Source: Rathayibacter sp. Leaf185
Lineage (GTDB): Bacteria > Actinomycetota > Actinomycetes > Actinomycetales > Microbacteriaceae
Assembly: GCF_001423885.1 (NCBI RefSeq)
Contig: NZ_LMPP01000003.1
Span: forward strand, 248,001-312,000
Reading direction: 5' to 3'
DNA: 64,000 bases
The notes below the pieces were generated by a model. It did no database searches. It was given only the letters and a program-made list of their open reading frames with translations, and was not told the origin of the DNA. Positions 19,890 through 64,000 of this stretch are shown piece by piece; position 1 is the first letter of the stretch, and the number at the start of each line of letters is the position of its first letter. The translations under genes were made by a program, and so were the position numbers.

Positions 19890-19997
19890 GGTGGTCCCGT
19901 CGTCCTGTTCCTGCCGCCCGATCCCCATCCAGCTCACGACCGGACACCGGGGAAGGTGCGTCCGGGCGCCGAGTGGCTGGGAGTCGCGCGGCAGGAG

Positions 19998-20429
19998 CTA
20001 GAACAGGCCGGGGATCACCTCCTCCTGGGTGTCGGAGAATACGGACTCCTGCTCCTGCAGGTAGGTCTCCCAGGCGCCCTGCGCCCAGATCTCGGCGCGA
20101 TTGCCCGCACCGATGACGGTGAGATCACGATCGAGACCCGCGTAGGCCCGCAGCGGGGCCGGCAGGGTCACGCGGTTCTGCTTGTCGGGAGTCTCGGCGC
20201 TCGCGCCCGACAGGAAGACGCGGAGGAAGTCGCGAGCCTGCTTGCTGGTGACGGGCGCCTGGCGGATCTTCTCGTGCATCACCTCGAACTCGCTCTGGCT
20301 GAACACGTAGAGGCACCGCTCCTGGCCGCGCGTGACGACGACTCCGGAGGAGAGCTCGTCGCGGAACTTGGCGGGGAGGATCACGCGGCCCTTCTCGTCG
20401 AGCTTGGGGGAATAGGTGCCGAGGAACAC
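19998..20429 (-). CDS. mraZ: Transcriptional regulator MraZ
   Basis: A 143-residue AbrB-like DNA-binding protein that autoregulates the dcw operon. Two SpoVT/AbrB-type repeats are visible, beginning [22 protein letters not shown] and later [20 protein letters not shown] at 20427-20429 is chosen because homologues start M(F/L)LGTY and a GGGGGG tract lies 7 nt upstream; the frame is open further up but without homology. Three MraZ boxes lie 40-65 bp upstream of its start. Confidence 0.97.
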
Positions 20430-54301: not shown

Positions 54302-54559
54302 ATGACGAACGCATCCCAGGACCACCCGATCCAGAACGGCAGCGACGACGCGGTGCTCGACGAGAAGCTGCGCGGCGTGCTGCTGCAGGTCGCCGGCGAC
54401 TCGCAGCTGCGCCCCGAGGAGGACGTCGAGGCGCTGCTGCGCCAGCGCCTGCGCGACACGCGCATCGAGATCCCGGAGGCGAGCATCCCGGGGCTCGCGA
54501 AGCGCATCCCGGGGCTGACGCAGCGCGGCGGCGGGGATCTGAGCCCCGGGGCGCACTGA
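54302..54559 (+). CDS. Small uncharacterised acidic protein
   Basis: An 85-residue protein starting MTNASQDHPIQNGSDDAV with helical segments LDEKLRGVLLQVAGDSQLRPEEDVEALLRQRLRDT. A GGGGGC tract precedes ATG 54302. No family recognised. It reads convergently with the following YdeI-like gene. Confidence 0.55.
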   Translation: MTNASQDHPIQNGSDDAVLDEKLRGVLLQVAGDSQLRPEEDVEALLRQRLRDTRIEIPEASIPGLAKRIPGLTQRGGGDLSPGAH

Positions 54560-54581
54560 GTGCTCGCTCTACCGGGCCGAG

Positions 54582-55187
54582 TCAGGAACGCTGCTTCGGC
54601 GTCCACTGCGCGGCGCGCTGATCGCTCTCCGCGAGCCGCGCGGTCTCGCGCACGCGGCGCTCCCGGGTCTCCGGCCTCGTCGCCTGGACGATCCACTCGA
54701 GGATCCCGCGACGCGCCGAGCGGGTGAACGCGTTCCAGTTCCGCTCGGCGTTCTCGTACTCGGCGAAGGCGTCCGCCAGGTCCGGAGGGACCACGAGGTC
54801 GACGTCGTCCAGGAGCGTCCAGGCGCCGGTGGCGATCGCCGCGGCGATCACTTCTTCGCCGGCCGGTAGCATCGCTCCCTCGCTCCGGAGCCGGTCGACG
54901 CGCAGCTTGTTCGGTCGTGACCAGGCGCTCGTCGGCTTCCGCGGGGTGAAGTAGAGCATCGTCCGCTCGTCGTCGAGCGTGCGCGGCCGGCTGTCGACCC
55001 AGCCGACGGCGAGCGCCTCGGAGACCGCGTCGTCGTAGGTCACCGCGGGGCGGCCGGTCGCCTTCTTCCACGACACCAGCCACACCGCCCGCTCCGATCG
55101 ATGGTTCTCGACCAGCCAGCGGCGCCAGTCCTCCCGGGTCTCCACGTGCACCTGAGGCGCCTGATGCGGCCCTGACGGGATGCACAC
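54582..55187 (-). CDS. YdeI/OmpD-associated family protein
   Basis: A 201-residue cytoplasmic protein. VWLVSWKKATGRPAVTYDDAVSEALAVGWVDSRPRTLDDERTMLYFTPRKPTSAWSRPNK matches the YdeI/OmpD-associated (bacteriocin-protection) family, and the C-terminal Arg-rich helix (ARRGILEWIVQATRPETRERRVRET) is also typical. Role unknown; E. coli YdeI affects peptide antimicrobial resistance. GTG at 55185-55187. Confidence 0.82.
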   Translation of the reverse strand: MCIPSGPHQAPQVHVETREDWRRWLVENHRSERAVWLVSWKKATGRPAVTYDDAVSEALAVGWVDSRPRTLDDERTMLYFTPRKPTSAWSRPNKLRVDRLRSEGAMLPAGEEVIAAAIATGAWTLLDDVDLVVPPDLADAFAEYENAERNWNAFTRSARRGILEWIVQATRPETRERRVRETARLAESDQRAAQWTPKQRS

Positions 55188-55220
55188 GGCGAATCGGCGG
55201 ATCCGCTCACCCCCGCCGAG

Positions 55221-55433
55221 TCAGTCGCTCTCTCCGTTCGCGGTCGCCTCGATCCAGTCGGTGGCGTCGTCGCGAAGAGCGCTCTCGTCGTCCTGCTGCT
55301 CTGCGATGTCCGTGCCGCCACCGGCGGAGCGGATCTCGTCCGCGATGCCCTCGGGCAGGACGTCTCCGTTGTTCGCGACGAGCCAGTCCCGGGTGGCGGC
55401 GCTCAGTCGCGGCCACCAGTGCGTGATGTCCAT
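55221..55433 (-). CDS. Small uncharacterised protein
   Basis: A 70-residue acidic protein, MDITHWWPRLSAATRDWLVANNGD onwards, with a Trp-rich helix and acidic C-terminus. The opening resembles short conserved Microbacteriaceae proteins of unknown function. ATG at 55433. Confidence 0.6.
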   Translation of the reverse strand: MDITHWWPRLSAATRDWLVANNGDVLPEGIADEIRSAGGGTDIAEQQDDESALRDDATDWIEATANGESD

Positions 55434-55636
55434 GAACCGATGCTCCTCCGCCGCGGCGTCGGTGTCGAGGTCGCCTGCGGCGCTGTTCGGAGGACGTCAG
55501 GGTTCGGGTGTCCGCCGCTCGGTCTCCGTGACGAGGGGGCGGGTCGAGGGACAGCAGGGATCCCGGGCGCCCTGCGGAGTCGGTCCTCACGGATCCGAAC
55601 CCGGACGGACGTCGGAGGCGCCGGTGGTGACCCCGC

Positions 55637-56371
55637 TCAGACGACGCCCGTCGTGCCCAGCAGCGACCCGAGGGCGAAGGTCGCCGCGAGGGCCAGTGCG
55701 CCGCCCACCACGACGCGCACCGTGGGGCGCAGCGGCGGGCTGCTCCCGATGCGGGCGCCGAGGTATCCGGTGAGGGCGAGCGCGAGGAGCACGACGGCGA
55801 AGGTGATCGGGACGCGCCATTCCGCCGGCGGAAGGAGGATCGCCAGGAGCGGGAGCAGCGCGCCGATCGTGAAGGCGAGCGCGGACGCTGCGGCGGCCTG
55901 GAGCGGGCTGGCGACGGTCTCCTCGGAGAGGCCGAGCTCGGTCTCGAGATGCGCGGCGAGGGGGTCGTGCTCGGTCAGCTCTGCCGCCACCTGCCGTGCC
56001 GTCGCGGGGCTGAGGCCCTTGGTCTCGTAGAGCCCGGCGAGCTCCAGGAGCTCGGTGACCGGATCCTCCTCGAGCTCGCGGCGCTCCTTTGCGATCAGGG
56101 CGCGCTGGCTGTCGCTCTGACTGCTCACGGAGACGTACTCGCCGAGCCCCATGGAGATCGCGCCGCCGACGAGTCCGGCGACTCCGGCCGTCAGGAGAAC
56201 CGGGGTCTGCGTGGTCGCTCCTGCGACTCCGACGACCAGCGCTGCGACCGACACGATGCCGTCGTTCGCCCCTAGCACGCCGGCGCGGAGCCAGTTCAGT
56301 CGCCCCTGGATCGCGCCGTCGTGCGGCTCGTCGCGGTGCGAACCGGGAGGGGGATCAGTGCGAGCGGTCAT
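55637..56371 (-). CDS. VIT/CCC1-family metal transporter
   Basis: A 244-residue membrane protein with about five TM helices. LNWLRAGVLGANDGIVSVAALVVGVAGATT and GGAISMGLGEYVSVSSQSDSQRALIAKERRELE match VIT1/CCC1 Fe2+/Mn2+ transporters that sequester iron or manganese. A Glu/Asp-rich cytoplasmic loop follows as in the family. ATG at 56369-56371 is adjacent to AGGGG. Its promoter is divergent from doxX and shares the region with the DosR-type box at 56407. Confidence 0.88.
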   Translation of the reverse strand: MTARTDPPPGSHRDEPHDGAIQGRLNWLRAGVLGANDGIVSVAALVVGVAGATTQTPVLLTAGVAGLVGGAISMGLGEYVSVSSQSDSQRALIAKERRELEEDPVTELLELAGLYETKGLSPATARQVAAELTEHDPLAAHLETELGLSEETVASPLQAAAASALAFTIGALLPLLAILLPPAEWRVPITFAVVLLALALTGYLGARIGSSPPLRPTVRVVVGGALALAATFALGSLLGTTGVV

Positions 56372-56406
56372 CCCCTGAGACAAGCATTCCGGAGGCACTC
56401 CCGCCA

Positions 56407-56421
56407 GGGACCTTCGACTCT
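56407..56421 (+). promoter_or_regulatory. Candidate DosR-type box upstream of doxX
   Basis: GGGACCTTCGACTCT, ending 72 bp before the doxX ATG. It has the GGGAC half-site and the C-T-C-T end. It matches the better sites at 58604, 58641 and 62329 with one degenerate half. Confidence 0.45.
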
Positions 56422-56493
56422 GTCCGGAGCGGGAGCGCTGCCGGAGTCTGACCGTGAGGCCGCACACCGCGGTCGCGAACCGGAGGAGCTCCC

Positions 56494-57069
56494 ATGACCG
56501 CACCCACCGTCCTCGACCACCGCGCGACCACCGTCGGCGGCGCCGATCCGCTGCCCGCCGGGGTGACGGGCCGCCTGGGACGACGAGTCCTGGCCGTGCT
56601 CCGCCTGGCGACGGGCTTCATCTTCCTCTGGGCTTTCCTCGACAAGACCTTCGGCCTCGGCTTCTCCACACCGGCCGAGCGCGCCTGGGTGGCCGGCGGC
56701 ACACCGAGCCAGGGCTTCCTCCTGGGTGACGGAGTCGTCGGGCCGTTGAAGCCGTTCTTCACGGCGATCGCGAGCCCCGCGACCGACGTGCTCCTCCAGC
56801 TGGGCATGCTCGGCATCGGAGTCGCGATGATGCTCGGCATCGGCCTGCGCGTCAGCGCTGTGGTGGGGAGCTTCGTGATGGTGCTGATGTACCTCGCCGA
56901 GTGGCCCTTCGGCGCGAACGCGGCGTCGACGGACCCGCTGGTCGACTACCACATCGTTTACGCGCTCGCCCTGATCGTGGTCGCCGTGCTCTCGGCGGGC
57001 GACACCTGGGGGCTCGGGGACCGCTGGAAGCAGCTTCCCCTCGTTCAGCGCCTCCCCTGGCTCGTCTGA
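56494..57069 (+). CDS. DoxX-family membrane protein
   Basis: A 191-residue four-TM protein of the DoxX family. Hydrophobic segments start VLAVLRLATGFIFLWAFLDKTF, LLQLGMLGIGVAMMLGIGLRVSAVVGSFVMVLMYLAEWP, IVYALALIVVAVLSA. DoxX members act in membrane redox complexes, and some are in the DosR-type hypoxia response. RBS GGAGG 7 nt before ATG 56494. A 15-bp perfect hairpin follows at 57102-57136. Confidence 0.85.
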   Translation: MTAPTVLDHRATTVGGADPLPAGVTGRLGRRVLAVLRLATGFIFLWAFLDKTFGLGFSTPAERAWVAGGTPSQGFLLGDGVVGPLKPFFTAIASPATDVLLQLGMLGIGVAMMLGIGLRVSAVVGSFVMVLMYLAEWPFGANAASTDPLVDYHIVYALALIVVAVLSAGDTWGLGDRWKQLPLVQRLPWLV

Positions 57070-57101
57070 CGGGCCGCCCGGCTCCCCCGGCCGGGACAGA
57101 G

Positions 57102-57136
57102 CGAAGGCCCCCTCCGTCAGCCGGAGGGGGCCTTCG
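57102..57136. terminator. Bidirectional hairpin terminator between doxX and PNPOx-like gene
   Basis: A perfect 15-bp inverted repeat CGAAGGCCCCCTCCG (57102-57116) with 5-nt loop and its inverse (57122-57136) in the 77-bp convergent gap. No T run is present. Confidence 0.88.
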
Positions 57137-57146
57137 ACTCGTGCCG

Positions 57147-57662
57147 CTACTCCGCGGTGCTCAGGCTGGTCGGTGACGGGCGCCGTGCGCGCATCGCGCG
57201 GAGAGCCCGGCGGAGGCGGTAGACGGGCCAGCGGAAGAAGGACCGGCCGGTGATCGACTCGACGTCGATGCGGACGAAGTTGTTCTTGTCGTCGTCGTGG
57301 AACGCTTCGAGCTGCTGGATGCCGGATTTCTCGATGTCGATGTCGGAGTTCAGCCGATGGGCGTCGCCGTGCAGGACGACGCTCCAGTAGCGCCGGCCCC
57401 GGTGCCCGTCGAACTCGAAGGCGACGCGCGAGTGCTGGGTGAGGTCCATCATCTTGCTGCCCGGACCGCTGCGGAAGTAGACCGCTCCGTCGTGGACGAG
57501 GAAGTTGACGGGCACGATCGCGGCGCTCGGACCGCGGGTGGAGGGGCGGTGATCGATGACCGCCAGGCGGCCGACGTCGGTCGAACGCGCCAGTCGCCAG
57601 CACTCCTCGGTCGACATCTCCTGAAGGGTCGTGTTCTCGCGGATCGTGCGGGCGGCGATCAT
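57147..57662 (-). CDS. Pyridoxamine 5'-phosphate oxidase-family FMN-binding protein
   Basis: A 171-residue split-barrel protein of the PNPOx-like FMN or F420-binding family. STDVGRLAVIDHRPST, PVNFLVHDGAVYFRSGPGSKMMDL and VAFEFDGHRGRRYWSVVLHGDAHRL match the family used in hypoxia and redox regulons (Rv2074/Rv3129-like proteins). The catalytic PNPOx-specific residues for pyridoxine are not evident. ATG at 57660-57662 overlaps the usp1 stop (ATGA), so it is cotranscribed with usp1. Confidence 0.83.
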   Translation of the reverse strand: MIAARTIRENTTLQEMSTEECWRLARSTDVGRLAVIDHRPSTRGPSAAIVPVNFLVHDGAVYFRSGPGSKMMDLTQHSRVAFEFDGHRGRRYWSVVLHGDAHRLNSDIDIEKSGIQQLEAFHDDDKNNFVRIDVESITGRSFFRWPVYRLRRALRAMRARRPSPTSLSTAE

Positions 57663-58522
57663 GCGGACACGGCGGGGTCCGGGACGACGATCACGGGGCG
57701 GGAGGCGCCTCGGAGAGTGTCGTGCGCGACGGAGCCGAGCAGGAGGCGCTGGATGCCGTGCCGGGCGGTGGCCCCCACGACGATCTCGAGGGCGTCCTTC
57801 CCCAGGCGGCGGAGGACGGTCGCGGGGTCACCGGTCTCGGAGGCGGTGCGCACCGTGAGATCGGGGAACTGCTCTCGGACGGCGGTGACCTCGAGAGCGA
57901 GCATGTCGAGGCTGGCCGTTCGGAGCAGGTCGTAGAAGCCCTGGTCGGGCACGAAGCCGGGAACCCAGGCCTGCAGCGGCGTCCAGACGTGGACGAGCGT
58001 GAGCGGCTCGTCGAGCTCGGAGGCGTCGCGGGCGGCGAACAGGACGGCCGCGCGCGCGGCGGGCGATCCGTCGATGCCGACGAGGATGCCGCCGTGATGC
58101 CCTGACTCGGGGATCGGGATGACGGCGACCGGGGCGGTGGAGCGGGCGGCGAGATCCACCGCGGGCGAGTGCCGGGTGCTGCTCTCGGAGCCGTCGTGAT
58201 CGTCATGGGTGCCGACGACGATCATCCGGGCGCCGCGGGCGTCCTCGGTGAGCATGTCGACGGGGCGACCGCGACGCAGCGCGGTGGTGACCGCGATGTC
58301 CGGCGCCTTCGAGGCGGAGCCGAACGCATCGCGGGCGAGGACGACCTCGCCGTGGGCGGCCTGGATGGTGGCGGCACCGGGGTGCCCGGCGGCGGCATCC
58401 GTATCGGAGACGAAGACGGCCAGCACCGGGGTGCCGGAGAGCCTCGCGCGGTGCAGCGCCCAGTCGAGGGCGGCGCGGCTGTGGGAGGAGTCGGAGAGTC
58501 CGACGACGATGGGCGCGTTCAT
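57659..58522 (-). CDS. Tandem universal stress protein 1
   Basis: A 287-residue protein with two USP domains (~residues 3-140 and 150-287). NAPIVVGLSDSSHSRAALDWAL and GILVGIDGSPAARAAVLFAARDA begin each domain. The ATP-binding GxxGx9GS motif is only partly kept (GTHDDHDGSESS and GATARHGIQRLLLGSVA), so nucleotide binding may differ between domains. DosR regulons carry several tandem USPs. ATG at 58522; a DosR-type box lies 81 bp upstream (58604-58618). Confidence 0.92.
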   Translation of the reverse strand: MNAPIVVGLSDSSHSRAALDWALHRARLSGTPVLAVFVSDTDAAAGHPGAATIQAAHGEVVLARDAFGSASKAPDIAVTTALRRGRPVDMLTEDARGARMIVVGTHDDHDGSESSTRHSPAVDLAARSTAPVAVIPIPESGHHGGILVGIDGSPAARAAVLFAARDASELDEPLTLVHVWTPLQAWVPGFVPDQGFYDLLRTASLDMLALEVTAVREQFPDLTVRTASETGDPATVLRRLGKDALEIVVGATARHGIQRLLLGSVAHDTLRGASRPVIVVPDPAVSA

Positions 58523-58603
58523 GACGCTCGATTCCGCCCCGGTGCCGCGCGGTGCGGCGATGGGGTCCTGCGTCGAGTGTCCGCGGGTGCGCGAGAGACG
58601 GGT

Positions 58604-58618
58604 AGAGGCGAACGTCCC
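58604..58618 (-). promoter_or_regulatory. Candidate DosR-type box upstream of usp1
   Basis: Read on the minus strand it is GGGACGTTCGCCTCT, ending 81 bp before the usp1 ATG. It matches the usp2 box at 13 of 15 positions (GGGACGTTCG identical). Confidence 0.55.
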
Positions 58619-58640
58619 GCCTCCGCGCCGTCGATGGTCA

Positions 58641-58655
58641 GGGACCAACGGCCCT
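58641..58655 (+). promoter_or_regulatory. Candidate DosR-type box upstream of the zinc alcohol dehydrogenase
   Basis: GGGACCAACGGCCCT, 78 bp before the ATG at 58734. A possible -10 TAGCGT lies at 58678-58683, so the site would be just upstream of the -35, the position of NarL-family activators. It resembles the mycobacterial DosR consensus (GGGACT-N-AGTCCC-like). Confidence 0.55.
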
Positions 58656-58733
58656 GGAGCCGCGCACGGGCGGTGCCTAGCGTCGGAAGCAGCCGATCGG
58701 CTCCGCCCTGTCACGACTCGAATCGAGAACCCC

Positions 58734-59807
58734 ATGAAAGCCGCACGCTTCCACGGCCCGCACGACATCCGCATCGACGACATCGCCGAGCCCGAGCTGC
58801 GCCCGGGAGCCGTCGCCATCGCCGTCGCCTGGTGCGGCATCTGCGGGACCGACCTGCACGAGTATCTCGAGGGCCCGATCTTCATCCCGCCCGCCGGACA
58901 CCCCCACCCGCTGACGCGCGAGCAGGTGCCGGTCACGATGGGGCACGAGTTCAGCGGCACCGTCACCGCCCTCGGCGACGGAGTCACCGACCTCGAGGTC
59001 GGCGCGAACGTCGTCGTCGAGCCCTACTCCGTCTGCGGGCACTGCGCTCCGTGCCTCGCCGGGCACTACAACCTCTGCACGAGCATGGGCTTCATCGGGC
59101 TCGCGGGAGGCGGGGGCGGGCTCAGCGAGAAGGTCGTCGTGGACCGGCGCTGGGTTCATCCGATCGGCGACATCCCGCTCGACCAGGCGGCACTGATCGA
59201 GCCGCTCGCCGTCGGCCACCACGCCTTCACCCGCAGCGGCGCCCAGCGAGGCGACACCGCGCTCATCGGAGGAGCAGGGCCGATCGGACTCCTGCTCGCC
59301 GCGGTCCTCGCGGCGGAAGGCGTCCGGGTCATCATCTCCGAGCCCGGCGCGGCGCGGCAGGCGATGGCACGGGACACCGGAGTCGCCGACGTCGTCATCG
59401 ATCCGATGACCGAGGACGTCCTGGCGCGCGTGCGCGAGCTGACCGACGGGAACGGCGTGGACGTCGCGTTCGAGTGCACGAGCGTCAACGCCGTCCTCGA
59501 CCAGCTCATCGACGCCGTGAAGCCCGCCGGTGTGATCGTCAACGTCTCGATCTGGGGCACCCGGGCGAGCATCGACATGCAGAAGCTGGTGCTCAAGGAG
59601 ATCGACCTCCGCGGCACCATCGCCTACGTCGACGACCACCCCGCGACGATCGCCCTCGTCCAGTCGGGCAAGGTCGACCTCGAGCCCTTCATCACCGCGC
59701 GCATCCCGCTGGACCGACTGATCGACGGCGGCTTCGACACTCTCATCGACCACAAGGAGACCGCCGTGAAGATCCTGGTGCGGCCTCGGACGGGTGATGC
59801 AGCGTGA
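58734..59807 (+). CDS. Zinc-dependent alcohol / 2,3-butanediol dehydrogenase
   Basis: A 357-residue medium-chain dehydrogenase. Catalytic zinc ligands are in CGICGTDLHEY (~34-44) and GHEFSGTV; structural zinc motif CGHCAPCLAGHYNLC follows. NAD motif is GGAGPIGLLLAAVLAAEG. The LEGP-FIP-P-HP sequence after the HEY block and overall length best match (R,R)-butanediol dehydrogenases, but other diols or alcohols are possible. Such enzymes often serve to balance redox at low oxygen. ATG at 58734; downstream gene (RR) is convergent. Confidence 0.88.
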   Translation: MKAARFHGPHDIRIDDIAEPELRPGAVAIAVAWCGICGTDLHEYLEGPIFIPPAGHPHPLTREQVPVTMGHEFSGTVTALGDGVTDLEVGANVVVEPYSVCGHCAPCLAGHYNLCTSMGFIGLAGGGGGLSEKVVVDRRWVHPIGDIPLDQAALIEPLAVGHHAFTRSGAQRGDTALIGGAGPIGLLLAAVLAAEGVRVIISEPGAARQAMARDTGVADVVIDPMTEDVLARVRELTDGNGVDVAFECTSVNAVLDQLIDAVKPAGVIVNVSIWGTRASIDMQKLVLKEIDLRGTIAYVDDHPATIALVQSGKVDLEPFITARIPLDRLIDGGFDTLIDHKETAVKILVRPRTGDAA

Positions 59808-59910
59808 CAGCCCTCCTCTCGCGCCGAGAAGGCGGTCGATCCCTCGCGTCCGGCTCGTGCCTGCGCAGGGGAAGGGCCGGTGACGCATCGCTCGTCTCGA
59901 GGGGCTCGGC

Positions 59911-60552
59911 CTAGCGGGACGCGGGCGGGCGCAGCTCCGTCTGCAGCACGGCGGCCTGGGTGCGCCGCTCGAGTCCGAGCTTGGCGAGGATGCTCGAGAC
60001 GTAGTTCTTGATGGTCTTCTCGGCGAGGGAGAGCTCGACTCCGATCTGCCGGTTCGTCAGGCCGTCGGCGATCAGGGCGAGGATCTGCCGTTCGCGCTCG
60101 CTGAGACCGGCGAGGCGCGGATCGACCGTGTGCTCGCCGCGCAGGCGCGAAGTGACAGCGGCGACGACCGCCGGATCGAGGAGGACGTCGCCGGCGGCGG
60201 CCGCGCGGACGGCGTCGAGGAGGCCCTTGCCGCGGATGTCCTTGAGCACGTAGCCGGAGGCGCCCGCGATGACGGCGGCGTAGAGGGCCTTGTCGTCGTC
60301 GTACGCGGTGAGGATCAGGCAGCGGATGCTCGGATCGCGAGAGCGCACGTCGCGGCACACGTCGATCCCGCTGCCGTCGGGAAGCCGAACATCGAGGACG
60401 GCGACGTCGGGCCGGAGCGCGAGGATCTCGCGGAGTCCCGACGCGGCGGCACCGCTCTGACCGACGATCTCGAGATCGGGCTCGGAGCCGAGGAGCTCCG
60501 CCAGACCGCGGCGCACGATCTCGTGGTCGTCGAGGAGGAAGACCCGGGTCAC
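59911..60552 (-). CDS. DosR/DevR-like LuxR-family response regulator
   Basis: A 213-residue response regulator. Receiver domain (1-125) has Asp8/9 (VFLLDDHEIVRRGL), phospho-acceptor D54 (VAVLDVRLPDGSG) and conserved KD near 104. The C-terminal LuxR HTH (~147-205) ends EKTIKNYVSSILAKLGLERRTQAAVLQTEL, close to the DosR/DevR DNA-binding helices of mycobacteria. The GTG start at 60552 overlaps the kinase stop. It probably recognises the GGGAC-type boxes around it (inference). Confidence 0.9.
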   Translation of the reverse strand: MTRVFLLDDHEIVRRGLAELLGSEPDLEIVGQSGAAASGLREILALRPDVAVLDVRLPDGSGIDVCRDVRSRDPSIRCLILTAYDDDKALYAAVIAGASGYVLKDIRGKGLLDAVRAAAAGDVLLDPAVVAAVTSRLRGEHTVDPRLAGLSERERQILALIADGLTNRQIGVELSLAEKTIKNYVSSILAKLGLERRTQAAVLQTELRPPASR

Positions 60553-62219
60553 GGGGTCTCCACGGCGGCGCGGAAGGGGAAGGGGACGCTCCAGCGCACG
60601 CGGGTGTCGCCGGGGACGCTCGTGATCGTGAAGGTGCCGCCGCGCGCCTCCGCTCGCCGCTGCAGGTTCGCGAGGCCGCTGCGCCGACCGACGTCGGTGA
60701 AGCCGCGGCCGTCGTCGCTGATCTCGAGGACGATCACGCCGTCTGCGGCGGTCAGGTGCAGCGTGATGATGTTCGCCTCGGCGTGCCGAGCGATGTTGGT
60801 GAGTGCCTCGCGAGCCACCGCGACCACGTCGTCCGCGAGCTCGCCCGTGACGAGCAGGTCGACGGCGCCCGCGAAGCTGATGTTGGGAGTGCGCACGAGG
60901 ACGGAGGAGAGCTCGTTGGCCAGGTCGAGGATCCGGTGCCGGACGGTCTCGGCGTCATCGTTGTTCGCGTTCAGGGCGAAGATGACCGTCCGGATGTGGG
61001 AGATGCTCTCGTCCAGGCTCGCGACGGCGCGCTCGATCCGCGTCGCCGCGCGACCCGGGGGCAGCGCTCCGGCGGCCTGGTGCAGGTCGAGTCCGGTGGC
61101 GAAGAGCTCCTGGATGACGTGGTCGTGCAGGTCACGGGCGATGCGACCGCGGTCCTCGAGCAGCGCCATCCGCTGCTGATCGGCGCGCGCCGACGAGAGC
61201 TCCATCGCGACGCTGATGTAGGAGGCGAAGTCGGACACCATCTCGAGGTCCGCCGGCGTGAAGACGGGCCGGCCGGTGCGCCGGGTGACGACGAGCACGC
61301 CGAGCGAACGGGAGGCGGCGATCAGGGGTACCGCGAGCACGGGACCGCCGGAGGTCGGCGTCCCTCCGCTCGTGGACGTCGGCAGGTGGTCGAGCACCCG
61401 CGGCTGGCCACCCGTGAAGACGCTGCCCGAGACGGAGGAGCGCGCCGGGAGCAGCCGGCCCTGGAACGCCTCCGCCCCGTCGCCGCGGGCCACCCCGACG
61501 CGCAGCTGCTCGGGATCCTCCGTGGGGAACACGACTCCGACGAGATCGGCGTCGGAGAGGTCGAGGATACGGGCGGCGACGAGACCGATGACGTCGTCGC
61601 CGTCGGCGGCGAGGATCGCCGCGGTCATCTCGGCGGCGGCCTGGGCCCAGCGCTGGCGCCTCCGCGTCTCGGCGAAGAGGCGGGCGTTGTCGATCGCGAC
61701 TCCGGCCGTCGCGGCGAGCGCGATGACGAGGTGCTCGTCGTTCGAGGTGAACGCGCCGGAGCGGGCGTCGGTGAGGTAGAGGTTGCCGAACACCTGGTCG
61801 CGCACGCGGATGGGGACGCCGAGGAAGGAGCGCATCGGGGGGTGCGCGGCCGGGAAACCATGGGCGCGCGCGTCGTCGCCGAGGTCGGCGACGCGGATCG
61901 GGTGCGGGTCGCTGATGACCGCGCCGAGGAGGCCGTGGCCCTCCGGCAGGTGCCCGATCGCCTCCACCCGCTCGGGATCCATGCCGACGTGGATGAACTC
62001 GTCGAGCGAGCCGTCACTCCCGATCACTCCGATCGCTCCGTACCGGGCATCGACGAGCTCGACGGCGGCGTCGACGATCCGGCGCAGGACCGCGGGGAGG
62101 TCGATGTCCTCGACGACGGCGCGGTTCGCGCGGAGGAGGGCACGGAGTCGGCCGGAGGTGCCGTCGGCCCAGGGGATGCCGTCCGGCCCGGTGACAGGCG
62201 AGGGGTCGAGATGGGGCAC
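60549..62219 (-). CDS. Double-GAF sensor histidine kinase, DosS/DosT-like
   Basis: A 556-residue soluble kinase. GAF-A (~40-180) contains GFPAAHPPMRSFLGVPIRV, whose His126 aligns with the heme-ligand His149 of M. tuberculosis DosS in my recalled alignment. GAF-B follows (~200-340). The HisKA_3 dimerisation domain has IARDLHDHVIQELF with phospho-acceptor H365, and the ATPase domain has NIARHAEAN and ISDDGRGF. No TM segment is seen, as for DosS/DosT. It is likely a heme-based O2/NO/CO or redox sensor paired with the downstream regulator. GTG at 62217-62219. Confidence 0.93.
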   Translation of the reverse strand: MPHLDPSPVTGPDGIPWADGTSGRLRALLRANRAVVEDIDLPAVLRRIVDAAVELVDARYGAIGVIGSDGSLDEFIHVGMDPERVEAIGHLPEGHGLLGAVISDPHPIRVADLGDDARAHGFPAAHPPMRSFLGVPIRVRDQVFGNLYLTDARSGAFTSNDEHLVIALAATAGVAIDNARLFAETRRRQRWAQAAAEMTAAILAADGDDVIGLVAARILDLSDADLVGVVFPTEDPEQLRVGVARGDGAEAFQGRLLPARSSVSGSVFTGGQPRVLDHLPTSTSGGTPTSGGPVLAVPLIAASRSLGVLVVTRRTGRPVFTPADLEMVSDFASYISVAMELSSARADQQRMALLEDRGRIARDLHDHVIQELFATGLDLHQAAGALPPGRAATRIERAVASLDESISHIRTVIFALNANNDDAETVRHRILDLANELSSVLVRTPNISFAGAVDLLVTGELADDVVAVAREALTNIARHAEANIITLHLTAADGVIVLEISDDGRGFTDVGRRSGLANLQRRAEARGGTFTITSVPGDTRVRWSVPFPFRAAVETP

Positions 62220-62328
62220 GACTGCTCCGCTCCGCCATCGGTCGGCTGACCTGACTGCGCCCTACCTTCCTCGACTCGGGCGCGATCTGCTAACCGGAGT
62301 GGCACATCCGCCGACGATCGGCATCGGC

Positions 62329-62343
62329 GGGACGTTCGGCCCT
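62329..62343 (+). promoter_or_regulatory. Candidate DosR-type box upstream of usp2
   Basis: GGGACGTTCGGCCCT, 47 bp before the usp2 ATG. It shares GGGACGTTCG with the usp1 box and GGCCCT with the dehydrogenase box. Confidence 0.6.
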
Positions 62344-62390
62344 GGGCTTCGTGATCGGTCGCGATCAGGCTCGGACGAGGAGGTGAGGCG

Positions 62391-63179
62391 ATGCCAGACA
62401 CAGTCCTCGTCGGGATCGACGGGTCAGGTCCGAGCGACGCGGCGACGCACTGGGCGATCGAGCGGGCGTCCCGCCTCGGTCTCGCCATGGTCCTGATGCA
62501 GGTGACCCAGGGGGTCGAGGGACCCGGAGAAGTGTCCCGCTTCCTCCTCGACCGTGCCGTGATGACCGCCCGATCGCACCCCGGCGTCGGGACGGTCCGC
62601 GGAGTCGCGGCCGACGGCGACGCGATGGAGCGCCTCGTCGGTGCCTCCGCCGACGCCGCGATCGTCGTCGTCGGCAGCCACAAGACCGGGTTCCTCCGCG
62701 GACGCGTGTTCGGCTCGCAGAGCCTGCGCCTCGTCGCCGGTGCGCTCTGCCCGGTCGCCATCATCCCCGAGCCGTCCGGCCGGGCGAGGCGCGGGGTCGC
62801 CGTCGGTGTCGCCGATACTCCGGCGGGCGACCGCGCCGTGCGGTTCGCCGCTGCCGAGGCCGCGGCACTCGGAGAGGAGTTGACTCTGATCCACGGCGAC
62901 GCGGGCCTCCCTGTCGGCGGCCTCGACGTCGACCTCGCTACTGCACCCGACCATCTGCTCGCGGCGGCACGGGCGTCGGCGATCGCAACGGCTCCGGAGC
63001 TGAAGGTGCGGGTGAGGTCGCTGCGGCGCCCGGCGGCCGTAGCGCTCGCCGACGCGGCTCCCACCAGCCTCCTGCTCGTCCTCGCGGCGTCGAGCGGGCA
63101 GGGCACCGGCTCACTGGGGAGGACGACGCACGACGTCCTGATGAACCTGGCCGGGCCGACGGTGGTCGTTCCTGCGTAG
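62391..63179 (+). CDS. Tandem universal stress protein 2
   Basis: A 262-residue protein with two USP domains. MPDTVLVGIDGSGPSDAATHWAIERA and GVAVGVADTPAGDRAVRFAAAEA begin the halves. Domain 1 keeps GSHKTGFLRGRVFGSQSLRL (GxxGx9GS-like). The second domain is shorter and lacks the ATP motif. ATG at 62391 has GAGGAGG 8-9 nt upstream. DosR-type box 47 bp upstream. Divergent from the histidine kinase gene. Confidence 0.9.
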   Translation: MPDTVLVGIDGSGPSDAATHWAIERASRLGLAMVLMQVTQGVEGPGEVSRFLLDRAVMTARSHPGVGTVRGVAADGDAMERLVGASADAAIVVVGSHKTGFLRGRVFGSQSLRLVAGALCPVAIIPEPSGRARRGVAVGVADTPAGDRAVRFAAAEAAALGEELTLIHGDAGLPVGGLDVDLATAPDHLLAAARASAIATAPELKVRVRSLRRPAAVALADAAPTSLLLVLAASSGQGTGSLGRTTHDVLMNLAGPTVVVPA

Positions 63180-63244
63180 CGATCGACAGCGCGGAGGGAC
63201 TCCCGGATCGGCCGGATCGGGAATGTTCCCGCTCCACCGACGCT

Positions 63245-63261
63245 ATACCCCCCGGGGGTAT
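63245..63261 (+). promoter_or_regulatory. Metal-type palindromic operator upstream of the P-type ATPase
   Basis: ATACCCCC-C-GGGGGTAT, a perfect 8+1+8 palindrome 32 bp before the ATPase ATG. The form TACCC-N-GGGTA is that of CsoR/RcnR-family operators, which control copper or nickel export. A second palindrome GGGAA-TG-TTCCC lies upstream near 63219-63230. Confidence 0.55.
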
Positions 63262-63293
63262 CAACACCCTGCAAGACGATCGGGAGGACGACC

Positions 63294-64000
63294 ATGATCC
63301 AGCACGACGTGCAGCACACCCACGAGCACTCGGGCCCTGCGATGAGCGAGCATCATCCAGGCGGGCACGGCGACCACGTCGCGCAGTTCCGGCACCTGTT
63401 CTGGATCATGCTCGCGCTGGCGGTGCCGACGGTCGGGTTCAGCGGGATGTTCGCGATGATCCTGGGCTACTCGCTTCCTTGGGCGTGGACCTCCTGGATC
63501 TCGCCGGTCCTCGGGACCGTGATGTACCTCTGGGGTGGGCGGCCGTTCCTGCAGGGAGCCGTCTCGGAGCTGCGATCGCGGACTCCGGGGATGATGCTGC
63601 TGATCGCCCTCGCGATCACCGTCGCGTTCGCCGCATCGTGGGGCGCGAGCGTGGGACTGCTCGATCACGGGCTCGACTTCTGGTGGGAGCTCGCGCTCCT
63701 GATCGTGATCATGCTGCTCGGGCACTGGATCGAGATGCGCTCCCTCGCGCAGACCTCGTCCGCGCTCGAGTCCCTCGCTGCACTCCTGCCCGACGAGGCG
63801 GAGCGGCTGCGGGACGGCGCGGCGGAGAGCGTGTCTCCCTCGGCTCTCGTTCGCGGAGACATCGTCATCGTCCGTCCGGGTGGACGGATCCCCGCGGACG
63901 GCCGAGTGGTCGAGGGCACCGCCGAGGTGGACGAATCGATGATCACGGGAGAATCGCGCCCCGTGAGTCGCGGCCCGGGCTCCTCCGTCGTCGCAGGCAC
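63294..64000 (+). CDS. copB: Copper-type P1B ATPase, N-terminal part (truncated by window edge)
   Basis: The first 235 residues of a heavy-metal P-type ATPase, open at base 64000. The N-terminus is His-rich (HDVQHTHEHSGPAMSEHHPGGHGDH), as in CopB-type pumps, and has no CxxC metal-binding domain. TM segments (FWIMLALAVPTVGFSGMFAMIL, MMLLIALAITVAFAASWG, FWWELALLIVIMLLGHWIEM) and actuator motif DESMITGES with GDIVIVRPGGRIPADG are seen. ATG at 63294 has GGGAGG 7 nt upstream. The CPx/CPH motif lies beyond the window, so copper specificity is provisional. Confidence 0.88.
   Translation, partial: MIQHDVQHTHEHSGPAMSEHHPGGHGDHVAQFRHLFWIMLALAVPTVGFSGMFAMILGYSLPWAWTSWISPVLGTVMYLWGGRPFLQGAVSELRSRTPGMMLLIALAITVAFAASWGASVGLLDHGLDFWWELALLIVIMLLGHWIEMRSLAQTSSALESLAALLPDEAERLRDGAAESVSPSALVRGDIVIVRPGGRIPADGRVVEGTAEVDESMITGESRPVSRGPGSSVVAG

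Follow-up and report, generated by a model that had tools for sequence, protein, structure and literature searches.

DosR-controlled dormancy has been studied mostly in mycobacteria, with one studied case in Streptomyces. In Mycobacterium tuberculosis the genes of the DosR regulon are scattered, whereas those of the locus described here lie together. This locus stands at the right-hand end of a 64,000-nucleotide stretch of the Rathayibacter sp. Leaf185 genome (G000; 4.1 Mb in 9 contigs), positions 248001-312000 of contig NZ_LMPP01000003.1 (G000:C3:248001-312000), which we call the window. By sequence comparison it is a discrete genomic island, and close relatives lack it at the corresponding site. 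We read it, with a probability of roughly three in four, as an island carrying a complete DosR-type regulatory module together with its cargo and predicted to act as a low-oxygen switch. The island would probably sense falling oxygen and trigger a survival response similar to dormancy in mycobacteria and Streptomyces. This reading draws on gene identities, heme-pocket residues, operator boxes and the comparison of empty with occupied sites, all of them read from sequence.

Compactness as such is not new, although the sequence-only reading that first singled out this locus had suggested that a compact island would be a distinct version of the response. A compact DosR-type cluster, that of OsdK-OsdR, is known from the SCO0167-SCO0219 region of Streptomyces coelicolor (PMC5069765, available text). 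Both loci have a DosR-type regulator, a DosT-like kinase and universal stress proteins (USPs) around them, and both have the same type of operator box; a zinc-type alcohol dehydrogenase (ADH), a gene type common to the two, is co-transcribed with USPs in S. coelicolor. In contrast to that cluster, the annotated island genes include neither a nitrate reductase nor a nitroreductase nor a pyruvate phosphate dikinase, and the island is an 18.8-kb insertion, which we count as a difference. On the island's side we also record genes for VIT, a DoxX-like protein, phosphoketolase, flavodoxin and DUF1003. The likeness to M. tuberculosis DosS/DosT-DosR extends to the regulator (56% identical, with the phosphorylated Asp and the DNA-reading Lys and Asn residues kept), the proximal His and distal Tyr of the kinase GAF-A domain, the box core of the DosR/DevR consensus, the USPs and a PNPOx-like protein. 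The mycobacterium has two kinases, against a single DosS-like match in the G000 genome at E <= 1e-30, and no alpha-crystallin is found among the annotated island genes. For Rhodococcus equi 103S, boxes sharing this DosR/DevR core consensus have been described and a phosphoketolase was noted as unexpected in an aerobe; the available text of PMC2947987 gives no island or mobility, nor does it tie the boxes to the phosphoketolase. We found no description of a DosR island in Microbacteriaceae or of its mobility in the open-licence literature, and the available parts of PMC4428469 and PMC5322544 describe no such island.

Gene content and extent of the island

The island measures about 18.8 kb and runs in window numbering from ~54562 to ~73335 (L009 13335), 9.3 kb past the window end. 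The contig was continued rightward (L009, window 60001-80000) as a P1B-type ATPase gene crosses that end. The features are as follows.

54562..64000, no strand: genomic island, in-window part (DNA junctions against G005, G007 and the G006 chromosome)
54582..55187, minus: YdeI/OmdA-type protein, leftmost island gene (PF13376, E 2.1e-18)
55637..56368, minus: VIT1/CCC1-type metal transporter (PF01988, E 1.6e-67)
56406..56421, plus: weak candidate for an asymmetric DosR box, AGGGACCTTCGACTCT, in the VIT/DoxX divergent promoter (matrix 8.0, rank 18 of 100 kb)
56494..57069, plus: DoxX/DoxD-like membrane protein (PF04173 sub-threshold, E 0.01, 16.2 bits against a cut-off of 22.7)
57147..57662, minus: PNPOx-like flavoprotein, Pyridox_ox_2 (PF12900, E 2.8e-22)
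57659..58522, minus: tandem USP (PF00582, two stretches)
58640..58655, plus: predicted DosR/OsdR-type box AGGGACCAACGGCCCT between USP (minus) and ADH (plus); best matrix match of 100 kb, 18.1 bits
58719..59807, plus: zinc ADH, butanediol-dehydrogenase-like (PF08240, PF00107)
59911..60552, minus: DosR/DevR-type response regulator (3c3w, E 5.3e-73)
60549..62219, minus: DosS/DosT-type kinase, GAF-GAF-HisKA_3-HATPase (domain matches; GAF-A structure matches)
62328..62343, plus: predicted DosR/OsdR-type box CGGGACGTTCGGCCCT between dosS (minus) and USP (plus); second-best matrix match, 17.1 bits
62391..63179, plus: second tandem USP, USP2b (PF00582, E 2.9e-22, two stretches)
63294..65366 (window end 64000), plus: P1B-type heavy-metal ATPase, 690 residues (TIGR01511/TIGR01525 with the first 235 residues; PF00122 and PF00702 with the whole)
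65468-66805, strand not noted: DUF222/HNH gene, right of the ATPase
69340 to 66893 (L009 6893-9340), minus: phosphoketolase, with the start at 69340 chosen by us
69391-71178 (L009 9391-11178), minus: four-domain USP, USP4, 595 residues (four USP stretches)
71246-71259, minus: box core match ahead of USP4, with the phosphoketolase behind; same core as the SCO0216 site
71851-71264, minus: DUF1003 gene, right of USP4
71757, strand not given: box core match before flavodoxin, inside the DUF1003 frame
71842-72390, strand not noted: flavodoxin, right of DUF1003
72416-73276, strand not noted: tandem USP, USP2c, last island gene before asnC
73880-73341, minus: asnC, right flank
74032-75129, strand not noted: alanine dehydrogenase, right flank, beyond asnC
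beyond 75129, strand not given: gluconokinase-like kinase gene, labelled by eye

The genes named by the sequence-only reading are all present in 55637-63179 and, DoxX apart, their labels hold, and its regulator and kinase are indeed of the DosR and DosS/DosT types, as judged by identity, residues and the GAF-A pocket. Its bounds, 55637..63179, were too short, and the 'iron/manganese storage' that it proposed exceeds the evidence of a bare VIT1/CCC1-type transporter, whose GTG start at 56503 in the list of open reading frames is probably too long. The DoxX label is weak because the DoxD match falls below the curated cut-off. Four bases are shared by the PNPOx gene with the tandem USP gene at 57659..58522, and likewise by the kinase gene with the regulator gene. 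The best structural match of the ADH is (R,R)-butanediol dehydrogenase (6ie0, E 4.7e-89), and ADH orthologues at 93-94% lie near DosR in G006, G010, G011 and G013. VIT orthologues lie near the island in G006 and G011, and the occupied G003 site contains a copy of the YdeI/OmdA-type gene at 91-92%. Six other same-genus genomes have relatives of USP4, 61-82% identical in protein sequence; a scan for G2xG9xG(S/T), which we take to be the USP nucleotide motif, found it in USP4 only at 250 and 545, i.e. in the second and fourth USP domains. The P1B-ATPase is variable cargo of the island: the block holding it is also present at the G003 site, and the gene is ~80% identical in DNA to ATPase genes on Clavibacter plasmids. 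Its start (window 63360-63982) has an 81% DNA match to G000:C7:2949-3574, on a 101-kb contig that may be a plasmid. Apart from the island, the window carries an mraW RNA motif at 19899-20002 on the minus strand (Rfam RF01746, 56.5 bits).

Regulator, sensor kinase and predicted operators

The regulator aligns without gaps to M. tuberculosis DevR/DosR (3c3w) with 117 of 208 residues identical (E 5.3e-73), and D54, K104, K179, K182, N183, T198 and T205 of DevR are all identical in it, including Lys179, Lys182 and Asn183, presumably the DNA-contact residues. It is, on this sequence evidence, a DosR/DevR-type protein. In a 117-row tree, from which one short row (G023) was left out, a 100/99 split separates 14 NarL-type paralogues and VraR from DevR, the island's regulator and the other DosR-type rows; it is partly built in since these 15 control rows were picked at lower identity, and the bootstrap had not settled. 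The regulator belongs to a 23-row clade (100/98) made up of 11 Microbacteriaceae rows and 12 rows of the window's own family. Clustering with unrelated NarL proteins, which the sequence-only reading had set against itself as a refutation, did not occur, the controls having been chosen at lower identity.

The GAF-A domain of the kinase matches 2vzw (E 1.9e-48), which we take to be DosT, a name that agrees with the residues, and DevS/DosS 2w3d (E 1.8e-42). DosS numbering was anchored on His149, and the DosS letters at eight other positions checked agree with the available text of PMC4082495, from which the roles of His149 and Tyr171 are also taken. His126 of the kinase corresponds to the proximal His149 and Tyr148 to the distal Tyr171; Gly stands at the position of DosS Glu87, like in DosT, positions 90, 97 and 169 are DosT-like, Val108 is as in DosS, and positions 89 (Ile) and 118 (His) are unlike both. 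His365 lies within an RDLHDHV motif. Taken together, the sequence features point to a DosT-like sensor that may bind O2.

Predicted palindromic boxes of the DosR/OsdR type precede several island operons. The published DosR/DevR consensus core, GGGHCNWWNGNCCC (PMC2947987, available text), occurs at 16 distinct places in the 4.1-Mb genome, and four of these (58641, 62329, 71246 and 71757) lie within the island, which makes up 0.46% of the genome; read backwards, the core occurs at 10-11 places. The other 12 strict matches, possible further regulon members, lie on G000 contigs C1, C2, C4, C6 and C7, with two on C7. A matrix built from the 13 S. coelicolor OsdR sites printed in the available text of PMC5069765 was run over 100 kb with provisional island bounds of 55187-75140. 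Its top five matches all lie in the island, an outcome equalled by 1 of 1000 column-permuted matrices, as do six of its top 10 (5/1000 permuted) and nine of its top 20 (13/1000). Four of the five best matches stand before island genes; the fifth, at 59276, lies within the ADH gene and was not counted as a promoter site, and a site at L009 13348 was dropped, being inside the 3' end of asnC. The pattern GGGACSNNCGGCCC has six matches in the genome, four of them in the island, but it was chosen after the sites had been seen, and the published core and the OsdR matrix are the independent tests. The 14-base core of the USP4 box, GGGACCTTCGGCCC, is identical to that of the S. coelicolor SCO0216 site.

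The corresponding promoters of G006, G010, G011, G013 and, in part, G008 have boxes at equivalent positions. Those before USP4, USP2b and flavodoxin are short blocks of identity amid diverged upstream DNA, and CGGGACGTTCGGC in the dosS/USP box is invariant across the five genomes aligned. Distances from box to gene in same-genus genomes are 74-75 bp for USP4 and 55-56 bp for USP2b (five genomes), and 78-79 bp for flavodoxin (four genomes); the G008 flavodoxin row does not align at the box. The ADH is less consistent: G006, G010 and G013 are without a box directly before it and have one between ADH and dosR instead. An alignment of the VIT/DoxX promoter from G000, G006 and G011 has the block AGGGACCTTYGMCTCTGTC in all three.

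Island gene types recur around DosR-type genes elsewhere. Within 10 kb of these genes in 21 relatives we found a DosS-like kinase in 20, a USP in 15, PNPOx in 13, DoxX-like and flavodoxin genes in seven each, phosphoketolase and DUF1003 in six each, ADH in five, ATPase in two and VIT in one. Near 14 other NarL-type regulators of related genomes, taken as controls, there was one ADH and none of the other types. A conserved neighbourhood in relatives, whose absence would have told against the sequence-only reading, was found. Six of the 21 are same-genus genomes and not independent; with these removed, USPs remain in 9/15 and PNPOx in 8/15. The pattern does not hold everywhere: among 80 DosR loci, many Streptomyces copies have none of these gene types beside them in the stretch covered.

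Insertion site and mobility

The mobility of the island is its more distinctive feature, and one absent from the sequence-only reading, whose hypoxia-dormancy island otherwise stands as regards the DosR-type genes, boxes and neighbourhood and falls as regards the bounds and compactness as a novelty. Fifteen same-genus genomes, G000 included, were surveyed at the insertion site, with a check of the flanking proteins in 13 and a DNA comparison for G011. In 12 (G001, G002, G004-G010 and G012-G014) the site is empty and a small gene adjoins asnC, the aligned ends of the flanking proteins being 12-58 bp apart in 11 of the 12 and ~490 bp apart in G004; in the other three (G000, G003 and G011) 14-21 kb lies between the same two genes. 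It is because of these 12 empty and three occupied sites that we call the block a genomic island. Its junctions come from G005, G007 and the G006 chromosome, which match the window up to 54559-54566 and, after 19-42 unmatched bases, from 73328-73343 onward. On a tree of AsnC and alanine dehydrogenase the occupied genomes group together with moderate support (89/93), which fits one insertion, and 88% of 200 bootstrap trees require a single change in site occupancy.

Relatives of the island stand elsewhere in four of the empty-site genomes (G006, G008 in part, G010 and G013), with DosR at 86-94%. That of G006 is on C2, a 190-kb contig of a three-contig assembly. In a 20-kb stretch at one end of C2, 42% aligns at 84.5% with Rathayibacter festucae plasmids, in their conjugation genes, and a further segment resembles a Rathayibacter plasmid stretch containing a ParB gene; we call the contig plasmid-like and not a plasmid because its ends do not overlap. 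The island may have been transferred by conjugation.

Phosphoketolases of the island type (at least 90%) occur in 7 of the 15 genomes, namely the six with a close DosR and G003. A second phosphoketolase (71-75%) occurs in 12 of the 15, including six of the eight that have no island copy. G000 holds both, the island copy and one at G000:C1:44858-47218 with 72% identity to it; the latter is likely the housekeeping copy, and the island enzyme could be a low-oxygen isoenzyme. Acetyl phosphate is a product of phosphoketolases. It also served as a phosphate donor to OsdR in vitro (PMC5069765, available text).

Of 502 matching plasmid records, four were examined, from the database records alone. Plasmid 1 of Frondihabitans sp. 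PAMC 28766 (NZ_CP014514) carries VIT, USPs, DosS-DosR, PNPOx, alcohol dehydrogenase and a phosphoketolase-like stretch in ~20 kb (VIT 69%, DosR 56%, DosS 48% and phosphoketolase stretch 75-78% identical to the island), but differs in gene order, in its extra genes and in its weaker matrix matches (best 11.5). The phosphoketolase-like stretch (L187 24272-25545) lies in two frames, is missing from the PLSDB gene table and matched in at least two pieces among the matches listed; it is perhaps a broken gene. Plasmid pDK1 of Rhodococcus sp. DK17 (NZ_CP118328) shares flavodoxin, USPs and DosRS with the island, and the two other plasmids have a DosS-like gene but no USPs beside it in the incomplete PLSDB gene table. 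One of these two, a plasmid of Arthrobacter sp. U41 typed as conjugative, has a DosS-like kinase and a response regulator with no listed USP nearby, and a perfect palindrome, AGGGACCATAGTCCCT, at L188 16392-16407, ~100 bp upstream of the regulator.

The G003 site keeps PNPOx-USP-ADH and ATPase-DUF222-phosphoketolase-USP4 at 86-88% DNA identity; DNA comparison found no match there to USP2b-dosS-dosR nor to DUF1003-flavodoxin-USP2c. A diverged DosRS pair (67%; 56-57%) stands ~0.3 Mb from the site and is accompanied by separate relatives of USP, PNPOx and flavodoxin. The boxes kept at the G003 site are weaker: that of USP4, with one base missing, scores 11.3 against 12.2-17.1 in the others, and that before the ADH scores 9.5 against 18.1 in G000. 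Our guess is that G003 never had, or has lost, the local pair and that the distant DosR controls the island in trans.

Proposed mechanism, alternatives and significance

We favour the following sequence of events, in which we infer the ligand, the oxygen response, the activity of the regulon and its metabolic benefit. Heme in the GAF-A domain would hold O2 and so keep the kinase quiet. A drop in O2, or binding of NO or CO, would lead the kinase to phosphorylate the DosR-like regulator, which would then bind boxes of the GGGAC-N4-GGCCC type and turn on its own operon, the USPs and PNPOx, the butanediol-type ADH, flavodoxin, and USP4 with the phosphoketolase. The cargo may allow NADH to be recycled and acetyl phosphate and ATP to be formed in the absence of respiration, and may keep the cell in a survival state. 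The whole unit would have entered the window's clade between the small gene and asnC, in the simplest case by a single insertion; its relatives in sister species lie either at other sites or on a plasmid-like replicon.

Besides the limits on the regulator tree, the moderate support of the occupied clade and the non-overlapping ends of C2, a number of results weigh against this reading. No exact copy of the perfect M. tuberculosis-like palindrome GGGAC-N4-GTCCC occurs in the window, and with one mismatch it is found twice against a shuffle mean of 8.4; both of these sites lie between island genes, which led us to try the Streptomyces form of the box. The looser GGGNC-N4-GNCCC has three matches in the window against 5.7 expected and 173 genome-wide against 228 for the reversed control; it has five in L009 against 1.8 expected (8/200 shuffles reach 5) and none in L010, and GGAC-N4-GTCC has no match in L009. 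Matrix matches scoring at least 12 have a density of 0.47 per 10 kb in 102 DosR-type stretches (G000 included) against 0.07 in the 14 controls, with at least one match in 55/102 and 2/14 respectively, but 0.47 is within the range of 50 permuted matrices (mean 0.23, maximum 0.60), and two DosR stretches of the same family (G015 and G021) have no match of at least 9.5. Three of the 21 relatives (G015, G030 and G043) have only the kinase near DosR. As to mobility, domain scans of island genes revealed neither an integrase nor a transposase, there is no tRNA in the window or L009, and there is no clear direct repeat at the edges, the longest word shared by the 200- and 150-base edge stretches being nine bases.

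The cue might be redox state or another gas instead of oxygen, in which case a DosRS-type pair would run an island for oxidative or nitrosative stress. DosS has been discussed as a gas or redox sensor (PMC4082495, available text), the flavin proteins and USPs of the cargo would suit either cue, and the residues at positions 89 and 118 match neither mycobacterial kinase. Against this, the Gly at the Glu87 position is that of DosT, whose oxy complex is stable according to the same text, and the DosT-like residues at 90, 97 and 169 point the same way, so we regard this alternative as unlikely. A somewhat stronger case, if still a doubtful one, can be made for a loose collection of stress genes in which the real unit is confined to dosRS, the USPs and a handful of partners, with VIT, DoxX, ATPase and DUF222 as bystanders. 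Among the 102 DosR-type stretches, VIT and DUF222 occur in four each, ATPase in eight and DoxX-like genes in 18; none of the 16 strict core matches precedes the ATPase, and the order of island genes varies among genomes. Set against these figures is the absence of the YdeI-to-USP2c block as one piece from the empty sites, together with the recurrence near DosR in other families of phosphoketolase, flavodoxin, PNPOx and DoxX-like genes, none of which was seen near the 14 controls. For the ATPase and DUF222, the bystander view is probably right.

The 12 empty sites could also have arisen by repeated deletion of an ancestral island. Loss is common, four of the empty-site genomes hold relatives of the island elsewhere, and the support of 89/93 leaves this view some room; the grouping of the three occupied genomes, the single change required in most bootstrap trees and the short junctions at the empty sites all speak for one insertion, and we consider repeated deletion very improbable. 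Returning to the island as an inserted DosR-type module, we tentatively suggest, at a little under even odds, that a hypoxia-survival regulon, comprising sensor, regulator, operator boxes and a set of genes for fermentation and stress, is exchanged as one transferable unit among plasmids and chromosomes in Microbacteriaceae, and that a host can then drop the unit's regulator pair and have the cargo run by a resident DosR, as perhaps in G003.

On this reading, a close relative of the DosR switch exists together with its boxes in another actinobacterial family, present in some species and missing from their sisters, which would provide natural pairs of species with and without it for testing the role of the regulon in survival. 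It would also be a case of a two-component regulon moving whole, after which a resident regulator may take over. If the suggestion of a transferable unit is true, DosR-type dormancy in Microbacteriaceae would be an exchangeable accessory trait and not an ancestral core programme.

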